Shown here piece by piece: positions 43,832 to 59,146 of a stretch of DNA of 64,000 nucleotides. The translations under genes were made by a program, and so were the position numbers. The DNA lies in the IMG/VR virus record IMGVR_UViG_3300025127_006147, positions 124,001 through 188,000 of that record; one strand, written 5' to 3'. A model generated the notes under the pieces. The model worked only from the letters and a program-made list of their open reading frames with translations, did not search any database and was not told the DNA's origin. Within the stretch, counting starts at the first letter, position 1. Every line of letters begins with the position of its first letter. The stretch is from a virus.

Positions 43832-46800
43832 ATGAGACAAAATTCACCACATATCAAAGAAAATATTGACCCAGAGTTACAATGGGCTATAGATAATCAA
43901 TATCGCACAAATCCTGAATTGAGAGATGAAATTTTAGATTATTTAAGTGATGATGATTTAGATTCATACATTGTTAATGTGGAACATGGGGACGTAAAAT
44001 TTAAATTACCACCAGAAAAAATATTAGAAAAACTGACAGGACTATCCGATTTAGGTAATGTAGTAACTACAATGCGGGGAGGGAATGGTGTAGCTATAAT
44101 AACCGATAAAAATTTAGTAGTTAAGATTACGGGAGATAAAGCAGAATATATAACAGCTAAAGAACTTGAGGGTATTAATAGTAAACACATAGTTAAAGTT
44201 CATGAAAGTAAAGTTATAGACCCAGACGACCAGAGTATTTATACCGAAGATAGTAAACCAGCATATTTAATTATAATGGATAAAGTAGATTCTCCCACAC
44301 CCCAACAAGAAAAGGATTGGTTTGATTGTTGTTGTAGTGAGGATAAACCCATATATGTAGATTTTACTGACCCTAATGGTGATGCTGTAGTACATCCACC
44401 AGTGGATGATTATGATAAATGTAATAAGATTTATGATGATATAATGAATATTAGGAAAGAGGTTGAAAAGACAGGGAGAAGATGGGTAGACATCGGTATA
44501 GATAATGTAGGGATGAAGGATGGTAATTACGTGTTAATTGATTTGGGAACAAATGACCCACTACCACTTACTGAAAGTAAAAAAATTATAAACGAAGGAT
44601 TTTTTGACATCCTTAGTAATCTTTTTAAAAGACCAGAACAAAAAAGTGACACTCCTGACGAGTTAAATCAATACCTACAACAACTACAGGATACTCTGGA
44701 TGAAAATGAAATTTATGATGAACAAGTTTCCAAGTTAGTCGACCAGTTAAAAGATTCAGATTATATAGACCTGGTAGATTTCCCTACCATGTTAAGAGGA
44801 TTAGAAAACAAACTTTTAAAAAGTGGAGAAAATAATGAAATAGTTATAGACTATTTGACTAGGTTAAATAACTCTTTACCTAAAAGAGCTAAATACGAAA
44901 AGAAATTATTACAAGGTCAAGTACCACAAGATAGTGAGTATTACGATGAGGTAGAACAAGAAAAATCTAGGATACCCAAAAAAATATTTAAAACTGAAAA
45001 AGAACTATTACAGATAGAGTTATTAAAACTACAAGAATGGGTTAAGAAAAATAACGTACCCGTTGCGGTAGTATTTGAAGGTAGAGATACTGCGGGTAAA
45101 GGTTCGACAATCAAAAAGTTAACAGAATATTTAGACCCTAAATATTTTAATATTGTCGCATTAGGAATTCCTAGTGAAGACGAAAAAAAGAACTGGTTTA
45201 AGAGATATGAAAAATATATTGAACCAGGAAAGATAACTTTTTTTGATAGGAGTTGGTATAACAGAGGAATAGTAGAACCAGTGATGGGTTATTCTTCAAA
45301 AGAAGAGTACGAACAGTTTATGAAAGAAGTTGTTCCTTTTGAAAAAAGTTTATTAAGTAGAGGTGTAGTATTGATTAAGTTCTGGTTATCAATCACTCAA
45401 GGAAAACAAGAACAAAGATTTACAATTAGACAACAATCTCCACTTAAATATTGGAAGTACTCTCCAAACGATGAAGCTTCCAGAGAAAAATGGGATGAAT
45501 ATACTGACTACAAAGAAAGAGTATTAAAGGATACTTCTCACAGTGGTGCACCTTGGGTGGTTCTAGATTCTAATGATAAAAGAATGTCTGCTTTAAATGC
45601 TATGAGACATGTGTTAGACCAAGTAGATTATGATGGTAAAGATACTGAAACGGTTCGACCAAAATATCCTGAAGCTATTAGTACCATTAGAAGAAGATTA
45701 GACGAACAAAGTGAAGAGGAAGTTAAGTTTACAAAAAGTGCAGAGAGAGTATTAAACACTGCGTGGTCCATGTCGAAAGATTCAAATCATAAGTTTACAG
45801 AGTTTAGGTCAGTCTTAGTTAAATTTTTTAACATACCTCTTACTACCGCTGAAGAGTTAACTTTTTTATGTAAATACAATATAGCAAGGGGTAATGAAAA
45901 AGTAGAAGAATGGGTTATACCCTACATTTATGAATCCACAGTTTACGTTTATGGTGATTATGACACAGAATCTTATTATGATGAGTGTGATGAAGAAGGT
46001 ATGAGTGGAGCTTATGGGCAGGAGTGTGAATGTCTTGAGGGTGAAATTATGGATGAAGACGAGGCGGAATACAGACCTTGTGATGAACAGGAGTTAGAGG
46101 ATATCCACTATGATGATGAGTGTGAGTGTAATAATTGGGAAGACCCAACAATAGAATTATATTATTATCCAATATATAGAAAAACAGTATACAGTACATC
46201 TGACCCAAATGAGTTAGGGTGTGTATACGACAGTCACCATGACCTAGATGATTATGTTAATTGTCTAGAAGTTGACGATGAACTAGTACAAGTAATGAGT
46301 GAAGAGCATGAAGATGATACTGATAGGGTCATTGAAGATGAGTTCGAATGGGATAAAGACCAAACAATAGTGGATTCATGGGAGTATGAGATAGACACGG
46401 ATGAATGGTCAGGGAGTTATATGATAAATAAAATAAATGAAATATATCCTGATAAACCAACTAAACTTAACGAACAACAGATGTCTTTGTTTCCAACTGG
46501 AGAATGGAGACTACCAGTGGGTGAAGAAGATGAATTAGAAAAGTTAGAAAGAATGTTACCCGAATCTATAGTCAAGATAATATTTGAACGATGGGACAAA
46601 GAAGAACCTCTTAGAATGGATGATAGGGATTTTAAGTTGTTTGGCCTACCTAAAGATGAGAGATTATTATTATTTTTAATAGTGAGGTACTTACAAAATA
46701 CCACCAGACCTATTCCTGTTGGTAGAGTGTGGGACTGTGATGATTTAGTTTCCTTATTTAATGATGAAGATAGGAGCACAGCACAAAAGTATTTGTGTGA

Positions 46801-59100: not shown

Positions 59101-59146
59101 AATTAGACCAGGTAAGTTAGTACCAAGAGGATGGCCTCGTCCTTAA
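53123..59146 (+). CDS. Giant polyprotein: PAP2 phosphatase, tandem GD modules, hydrophobic C-terminal domain
   Basis: A 2007-residue protein. N-terminus has I-Q-E-Q near residue 13. Residues about 35-240: the PFE/ITP module (FTPFELAILKLIHQNLTKGN; KKWINIAKLVG) shared with 43832 and 50443. About 290-445: a PAP2 phosphatase with the full signature, K-x6-R-P (344-352), PSGH (377) and SRNMAKVHYPSD (412). A hydrophobic stretch (about 690-715) and a Ca-loop-like DEDGNGIDDYID follow. L-N-E or L-H-E then occurs at 746, 865, 987, 1095, 1211, 1285, 1381, 1524, 1774 and 1938, mostly followed by Q or S. Between many of them lies a GD module (NPELxxGDxIxVxDVD ... DTW). A second hydrophobic domain lies near 1620-1650. 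Processing into about ten pieces is inferred. Confidence 0.85.
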   Translation: MYTLKEIRKILNIQEQDRNEDSWSDEDAIETNEGDGKPFTPFELAILKLIHQNLTKGNMEDVLRDHAYPGNVGKKWINIAKLVGLRHSIQQGHSINDIAYDKKYVKWALDNWTEDGDYASIEKPIKVPPKRYEVDREESGSQVVYKDGSTTVIAYDEDMAGDTANNQFWDWGGEMETNDYGDYETYDSEITGVRPLEVLSEEKQKEFNELVKLCELGEKYTPRIVGGVTRETLTQFLKENINDMVYRDEPKEKHVRRMNRPLGPLEGFPIEKFKNIPPPKNESTETEEEIDYLDSIPVEKGFVNSADDVDGHFKKFLEPKGLEFPTEELKDVMKGVKSIILQLKYHYNRPRPYQVADAKNLKLDSENLKSASTPSYPSGHATQGTFLGRYLADLYPEYEKELRQIGEDIAFSRNMAKVHYPSDSEFGKMLGNDLYEFVYQREVELQEHFEESSSEYGGDKLLVPIKALEQYANTYLKEDFKNEMSNVLECLERTCYQIGEPYYLSMVDEDGELVQLQSNCNDCTHLLDEILQTLDAELIKMGFLKGNDNGMLVKPFPKEYNRWVEDIMQEINPGFFIDDNDEVSYKDLGNAHDAYYDLSEQISPEALQDLYAFHGEELKERKFGEKIKGFTQKKKEDLKKFWFELTKGAKRERKETAEAVKILARLIKNRDSVTQEDLTFLKQQSGDIARIIALISLGAVSVVIPVGLEKLLNQYGISIMPRKRSKDEDGNGIDDYIDVTQNDNLLNEQQEISPVLKYGDIITILDIPTPEIGFWEDVPREKRQSYAFGEPELFKPYWVWKPSYGAPKKEGTYIIVPLDEVSELQKLGHLKPEDEGLPGHLHKKLRTIRRSRGDQWLMINHTEPLNESKQQFNPELKEGDFIRIYDVDKDSPIISREGYTDQDRYTMYGGDSIPEIFKVYVVMLVTKYKTTQFGREGEKIYVLMGPDMNPSRPYYIFPSHDTWVKVPKEEGLEAFKEGLESYHRMHLNESDPKKGTGKKPKGSGRRLYTDEDPSDTVSVKFRTKEDIVDTLNKPSFKSKSHKRQSQIINLIHQRVRAAHKNAKDPKTKKRLKRALDYITNKKERSKEKTKRLNKLNESTQTNQPLNRGDEIMIVDLDHSTQGYMTGRLPISMVTPDTFKPYRIFGITHRRRENWEGPDADTRIYQLEPVDITDEERTQDMISGGGQRRGLHMIPGDTWILQKRPENWYDNLHESKQEISPRLEIGDKIKVIQIDGEHENELGEQPNEAARTLANTRKHGIGTRFSKPAIKANPQRFRKYTRDKYLNEQQEINPELEIGDKIKVIEVDGEHGRMPKLFTTVYEVIRSWRRNVNENGVRGEWYDLLPENFREQKKVGERDVRNDSKTIYHGDIWIKVNPTETLNEQREPTELNPELKMGDEIMVVDVNSERESGETSYTTPPTGRKSERYIPYVVVEKNSNGHQSEWRWKYVVVEKRFLEKILKLMEERPGYVKSVPGRNLAPGYDTDWTGNLIEMNAKFLYPWVYQWIKTGEFNELSKFGLTETLNEETTIFGQGLMNNIKPEEFEGTDEEWEEMVTLNSDEVLDIEDDYEYVGGITDPSTGFVAPSKEVTNNICKVKGFCKAQGPITFGQLRELVKAASSKRLKSDMGRGTFRELWRIVPFFIPQVLLAAVGAELARVINKIISPALKEAGSYKSWWGQVVMKTMNVAEGTAFPNMVLGDDPLTKVFFISDGLLHMISDKYKLKFAKYVADVAASKPDDEPVPDWFVENLLRDYLNQKFLLDPPLPVKVSNEPLNEQQFPFNPNNKDIERDHPEGEPDWSIRRGDQHYAMNVENTPNEPVAAFNNYLVKNSPFIIEGFDFYLSAVPGNMPQSAIVDVYVPMMDDSAVADDIWNKDRIYYERTQDGSSDRMIYQGRKEKLHNLDYDQKFPEFTYYEDFQDQHPEYIEYLEKELGDSNLLNEPGAQYEMIWRTKRMNLQNELDSMAKLFGVSRALINRNPRKPWKRQRDNYNNEKIRPGKLVPRGWPRP

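Follow-up and report, generated by a model that had tools for sequence, protein, structure and literature searches.

Prohead protease-type motifs bound exchangeable modules in giant proteins of a T4-like phage: candidate cargo polyproteins

Results

We analyzed a 64-kb stretch of viral DNA (the window), which spans positions 124001-188000 of the linear virus record IMGVR_UViG_3300025127_006147 (194,481 b) and carries four large genes on its plus strand, encoding proteins of 1668, 436, 454 and 2007 amino acids (aa) (Table 1). The record is assigned to a T4-like phage by its tail sheath, which is homologous to T4-type gp18 proteins and has Microcystis phage Mel-JY01 as its nearest named relative, with cyanophages next; tail and connector families were also matched in family searches. 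The largest two proteins, here called polyproteins 1 and 2, are strings of modules separated by [LI]xE, the motif after which the prohead protease gp21 of T4 cuts (PMC9026906). Related viral contigs and records compared with the window are labeled G0xx and L0xx. The whole 2007-aa protein as a query against viral contigs found no relative, and relatives were found instead through PhoH and single-module searches.

Table 1. Genes, modules and [LI]xE sites of the four-gene cluster. Nucleotide positions are those of the window and residue numbers those of the protein; a slash marks a predicted cut.
Feature	Position	Strand	Remarks
Polyprotein 1, 1668 aa	43832..48838	+	family searches, site reading, homologue comparison
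Polyprotein 1, predicted cassettes			1-10; 11-255 kinase-like; 256-625 PPK2; 626-881 acidic; 882-1223; 1224-1414 module common to 436- and 2007-aa proteins; 1415-1668 GD module and C-terminus
INE 253-255	44588..44596	+	precedes PPK2 cassette (cassette missing from G003)
LDE 623-625 (LDEQ)	45698..45706	+	follows PPK2 cassette
LNE 879-881 (LNEQ)	46466..46474	+	L009 insertion point, 250-aa cassette
INE 1221-1223 (INEQ)	47492..47500	+	L009 insertion point, 486-aa cassette; MNE in G003
LKE 1412-1414 (LKEQ)	48065..48073	+	retained in L009 and G003
436-aa protein	50443..51753	+	basic N-terminal peptide MERRKTIKE/; HELVHH module; LKE 252-254 (LKEQ); shared module
454-aa peptidoglycan enzyme	51759..53123	+	M23 + PG_binding_1 + SLT; N-terminal peptide MKIVITEEQLQKILKIKSTLNE/, LHE in G003
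Polyprotein 2, 2007 aa	53123..59146	+	N-terminal peptide MYTLKEIRKILNIQE/
Polyprotein 2, modules			16-447 shared module and PAP2 phosphatase; 448-748; GD modules; 990-1097 basic GTGKKPKG; 1527-1776; tail modules
LQE 445-447	54455..54463	+	left edge of 1079-aa block missing in G003
LNE 746-748	55358..55366	+	precedes GD module
LNE 865-867	55715..55723	+	precedes GD module
LNE 987-989	56081..56089	+	at GTGKKPKG module start
Mobile basic module SDPKKGTGKKPKGSGRR...	56090..56413	+	pI 10.5; embedded and single-gene forms in many phages
LNE 1095-1097	56405..56413	+	
LHE 1211-1213	56753..56761	+	
LNE 1285-1287	56975..56983	+	precedes GD module
LNE 1381-1383	57263..57271	+	precedes GD module
LNE 1524-1526	57692..57700	+	right end of the 1079 aa that G003 lacks; reads LDE there
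LNE 1774-1776	58442..58450	+	shifted in G003
LNE 1938-1940	58934..58942	+	doubtful site; LNA in G003

Unrelated domains are joined in single chains. Polyprotein 1 contains a PPK2 domain (PF03976, E=3.2e-71) with Walker motifs GRDTAGKGST and FFDRSWYNR present, and polyprotein 2 combines several module types with a PAP2 phosphatase (PF01569, E=6.1e-8) that has three catalytic motifs (KYHYNRPRP, PSGH and SRNMAKVHYPSD). The initial annotation, which had no entry for PAP2, had named both a kinase-like and a PPK2 module in polyprotein 1. The second name held, whereas the first is a motif reading: residues 11-255 have no Pfam match, and their AlphaFold model (predicted local distance difference test score, pLDDT, 39) was not used. 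The HELVHH module of the 436-aa protein is a weak Peptidase_M78 match, below the cut-off. For most cassettes, family searches gave no match; several are strongly acidic, with an isoelectric point (pI) of 4.1-4.4 and 20-28% D+E. A model of the GD module is beta-rich (pLDDT 72), with low confidence at the C-terminal LNE and no PDB match at E<0.001. Three paralogous modules in the window each begin directly after [LI]xE/Q.

All of the [LI]xE sites listed in the initial annotation were found where it had placed them, including the recurring LNE or LHE between residues 746 and 1938 of polyprotein 2 (ten sites, plus LQE at 445) and LKEQ at 252 ahead of the shared module of the 436-aa protein. Relative to shuffles of each protein, LNE occurs 9 times in polyprotein 2 (0.86 expected) and LNE[QS] 7 times (0.08 expected), a count reached in 0 of 2000 shuffles, while the reordered tripeptides NLE, ENL, LEN and ELN occur 0-2 times each, mostly at chance level. 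In polyprotein 1, [LI]xEQ is found 4 times against 0.93 expected (P=0.0145). The codons at these sites differ (ATA AAC GAA, TTA GAC GAA, CTT AAC GAA, CTG AAT GAA, TTA AAT GAG and others); therefore, simple copying of a single DNA word does not account for the sites.

Comparison with relatives reveals that whole cassettes are gained and lost at these sites. The L009 homologue of polyprotein 1 is 90% identical and is longer through two inserted cassettes, one of 250 aa that runs from LNE to LNE and contains a peptidoglycan-binding and an unknown domain, the other of 486 aa and bounded by INE and IYE. G003 has no PPK2 region between two of the sites (the automatic alignment is diffuse at this place, and the junction was located by visual reading), and its polyprotein 2 homologue lacks the 1079 aa between LQE 445 and LNE 1524. 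A different polyprotein, present in G006, G007 and G008, carries basic, metallopeptidase-like and other modules together with one resembling nicotinamide mononucleotide adenylyltransferase (NMNAT). Here two inserted cassettes distinguish G006 from G008, one of 147 aa bounded by LNE and LHE and one of 118 aa with LNE at both edges; the single cassette of 122 aa that distinguishes G006 from G007 is likewise flanked by LNE on both sides. Whether a site is kept while the surrounding sequence drifts differs from case to case: LKE 1412 is kept, LKE 252 of the 436-aa protein is LNE in G003 with flanks only 41% identical, and LNE 1524 is LDE, but LNE 1774 is shifted in G003 and two further sites are altered there (see Discussion). 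It is very likely that the [LI]xE sites are real, selected module separators.

One of these junctions can be followed through many unrelated contexts. The basic module of polyprotein 2 (KxGTGKKPKGSGRR) has 581 confirmed relatives in viral contigs, of which 80 were kept, yielding 69 distinct contexts for comparison (45 embedded, 24 single-gene). The motif [LI]xE stands exactly one residue ahead of DPK in 27 of the 45 embedded and 17 of the 24 single-gene copies, against a background of 0.013 per residue; the corresponding binomial P-values (2e-39 and 3e-27, respectively) are naive because the contexts are related. Eight further embedded copies have [LI]xE five residues farther upstream. Any other given x-E or [LI]-x motif is found at the junction in 0-1 of 45. 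Mean identity is 10% in the 20 residues upstream of the motif and 84% in the module: the junction is kept beside unrelated neighbors. Single-gene copies start, for example, with MISLTDILNEVLSE/SDPK or MIKLIDILTE/ADPK, and these starts have the same form as a T4 capsid-targeting sequence (CTS). In Pelagibacter phage HTVC033P, where no S77 (gp21-type) protease was detected, a related module begins without [LI]xE; this is a single control.

Short, basic, hydrophobic N-termini ending in [LI]xE are found in 24 of the 156 proteins of the record, compared with 4.3% of internal Met-started control segments, and their distribution is uneven: 19 of 77 in accessory clusters versus 5 of 79 elsewhere. Some of these 24, which include several metabolic genes, are surely due to chance. 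The plain frequency of N-terminal [LI]xE over all genes was a weak discriminator (35% vs 28%) and was set aside; the feature stood out once composition and charge rules were applied. A CTS-like peptide is plausible and conserved in the 2007-, 454- and 436-aa proteins; in T4, such peptides steer cargo into the capsid (PMC9026906). In huge phages, the PPK2 module and module 1527-1776 of polyprotein 2 occur as single proteins, starting MINNFIKFINE/ and MDYMKSYKDKLNE/. Huge phages LR756501 and LR756502 (642-735 kb; L202 5902-6615, L201 4767-5933) carry polyprotein modules as single genes with CTS-like N-termini, and also S77 proteases.

Two peptidoglycan enzymes of the window, a Phage_lysozyme protein (24293-24910, minus strand) and the M23+SLT protein (51759-53123, plus strand), have like N-terminal peptides (MKLINQLTLLIE/ and MKIVITEEQLQKILKIKSTLNE/), which suggests that they may be virion-packaged lytic enzymes. 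Three other window proteins (7636-9000, plus; 11567-13252 and 13254-15002, both minus) have in common a motif resembling SCYYGAGTKWCT, which reads SCDMAGAPLTRWCT in the first of them, all begin with a short [LI]xE peptide, and are probably related cargo.

The S77 prohead protease is present in phages related to this one. Nine neighboring genes at the left end of the record match G002, G003 and G004 in the same order with 63-95% identity. A few kb farther on, G002 has its head cluster, which comprises the major capsid protein (MCP), a scaffold-like protein, the S77 protease (∼8 kb past the homologous gene), portal and terminase; syntenic G004 also has the protease. G006, G007 and G008 encode it on the same contig as their site-bounded polyproteins. 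It is also encoded in 17 of the 26 larger records bearing the GTGKKPKG module, in Flavobacterium phage vB_FspM_immuto (immuto) and in the two huge phages. The N-terminal region of the MCP has a conserved [LI]xE at two columns in 38 of 39 sequences (LYE/NQATHLINE/A in G002), and these presumptive cleavage sites are consistent with [LI]xE specificity of the protease in this phage group. A further contig, G017 (L010 / L102), has a kinase module that is 97% identical, a gp4-like head closure protein, a portal-like gene and an S77 protease; we did not use it as evidence because a run of N and a sudden switch within the kinase module, after module residue 214, mark it as a possible chimera.

Discussion

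The initial annotation proposed that these enzymes are packaged as polyproteins and freed as single domains. This is supported in part: the sites bound evolutionary modules, one junction persists beside unrelated neighbors, and relatives have the S77 protease. From this we infer cutting, packaging and injection. In this view, the genes of this T4-like phage would specify cargo polyproteins. Each chain would be drawn into the prohead as it grows, and in several of the proteins a short targeting peptide at the N-terminus would serve for this. At head maturation, the gp21-type protease would cut after [L/I]-x-E in exposed linkers, so that PPK2, PAP2 phosphatase, metallopeptidase-like, basic, GD and other modules would be freed inside the capsid and enter the host along with the DNA. 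Cassettes could then be exchanged, added or lost without harm to their neighbors, because each starts and ends at a cut site. We consider it likely that the prohead protease cuts the module-separating sites; on precedent, packaging and injection of the released modules are probable; and the explanation as a whole we also regard as likely.

Several observations weigh against this explanation. The protease itself was not found in the 194,481-b record (PF03420, phrog_207), the search that the initial annotation had called for. The same record also has no terminase, portal, scaffold or MCP; it is therefore incomplete, and the failure is explained by its stopping before the head cluster. The motif carries little information: most copies in these proteins fall within modules, and bare [LI]xE is not enriched over shuffles in the two polyproteins (30 vs 27.6 and 35 vs 27.9). 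Counts alone thus prove nothing; position decides, and linker copies alone can be meant. In favor of the explanation, [LI]xE ranks first among ten motifs for enrichment at the ends of local similarity in 1132 proteins, on either side (1.7-fold and 2.2-fold), in sequences that are related and not fully independent; the same test on the window's own proteins alone had too few boundaries, and its N side gave nothing. In about one-fifth of the embedded GTGKKPKG copies, [LI]xE is absent from the vicinity of the junction. Some indel edges in G006, G007 and G008 are without the motif, the right edge of an M23 domain loss from the 454-aa protein is not at any site, and in G003 sites 1221 and 1938 read MNE and LNA. 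Finally, the N-terminal peptide of polyprotein 1 is weak and not conserved (MRLNAHHSGE in G003).

Three other explanations were considered. It is unlikely that prohead protease cutting serves chiefly head assembly, the chains being prohead-core or scaffold-like proteins, rather than delivery of enzymes to the host. T4 offers a precedent, since its core proteins gp22, gp67 and others are cut to several pieces by gp21 (PMC9026906), and the very acidic cassettes resemble scaffold proteins, which often are so. However, a scaffold has no need of PPK2, PAP2 and peptidoglycan enzymes with intact motifs; cassette content differs between near relatives, and in the syntenic relative the scaffold-like gene is a separate one, located between those for MCP and protease. 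Slightly more doubtful still is the idea that the motif is a recombination joint only, with LNE a by-product of short DNA homology in a chain that stays whole or is cut by an embedded metallopeptidase. Polyvalent proteins, proposed to be injected as many domains in one chain with release by such a peptidase (PMC5512222), and the weak metallopeptidase match in the 436-aa protein favor it, but the differing codons indicate that the common feature is an amino-acid motif, and the same motif closes the short N-terminal peptides of single-gene copies, where there is no cassette joint. The HTVC033P module, one case, also speaks against it. That LNE is just an inherited part of duplicated GD modules, six of which end in LNE, LHE or LQE, is very improbable: across various genes and phages, the motif also divides the mutually unrelated PPK2, PAP2, GTGKKPKG and shared modules, and indels that involve unrelated cassettes have it at their edges.

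It is instructive to compare the proposed cargo polyproteins with known systems. Capsid-targeting peptides, gp21 specificity and enzyme cargo are already known from T4, propeptide multi-cuts from SPN3US, and multi-domain injected proteins from the polyvalent class. The T4 proteins IPI, IPII, IPIII and Alt, whose CTS is removed by gp21, are alike in their short [LI]xE-ended N-termini, gp21-type protease and probable head enzyme cargo (PMC9026906), but each matures as one protein after the loss of propeptides at its ends (N-terminal; C-terminal in Alt), whereas here one chain has predicted cuts at several to about ten internal linkers between separate modules. In phiKZ and SPN3US, whose prohead proteases are gp175 and gp245, cuts after x-x-E are made in many head and ejection proteins, sometimes at more than one site (PMC10052503, PMC9026906); those multiple cuts break up N-terminal propeptides of up to 254 aa destined for removal, while here the pieces between sites are modules themselves. 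Polyvalent proteins (Iyer et al. 2017; P1 DarA, DarB, DdrB) likewise have many unrelated domains per chain and are thought to be packaged and injected, but their release by embedded metallopeptidase domains has been proposed (PMC5512222); here, it is the prohead protease motif that the separators match and at which cassettes are exchanged. A further comparison is with the cultured T4-like phage immuto (NC_055915; gp088, gp079). It encodes an NMNAT/metallopeptidase protein homologous to the G006 type, a protein in which LNE sites occur several times, and an S77 protease, and neighboring proteins have CTS-like N-termini. Its homologue is 45% identical to that of G006 over the matched part, and the proteins are annotated as nicotinamide mononucleotide adenylyltransferase and hypothetical protein. 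In the literature searched, which left many subscription papers outside, we found no description of polyproteins whose modules are parted by prohead protease sites, with site-bounded exchange of cassettes.

With more reserve, we lean toward a broader view, that a widespread class of T4-like phages may load the head by means of cargo polyproteins: one targeting event would serve each chain, the capsid-maturation protease rather than an embedded peptidase would release the enzymes, and the cut site would double as a standard joint, allowing cassettes to pass from polyproteins to single genes that have a targeting peptide, and back. If this is true, a phage capsid protease doubles as a polyprotein-processing enzyme, as in RNA viruses. 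A simple sequence rule for injected effectors would also follow: in S77-bearing phages, they would be the segments that [LI]xE sites mark off within late accessory genes, and many "hypothetical" phage proteins could be divided into candidate injected modules testable for counter-defence or host take-over. The same features in a cultured phage, immuto, make the question decidable now.

Other genes of the window and its relatives were also noted. Adjacent ClpP-like protease genes (39367-40035 and 40037-40639, plus strand; read from sequence) are paired in L009 and G003 as well. The genes at 9390-10274 (minus), 29629-30708 (plus) and 37833-38975 (plus) look by eye like cysteine synthase, glutamine synthetase and serine hydroxymethyltransferase. 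Beside PhoH in L001 (record positions 6253-19255), nucleotide-sugar and glycosyltransferase-like genes form a variable island that differs among G000, G002, G003 and G004.

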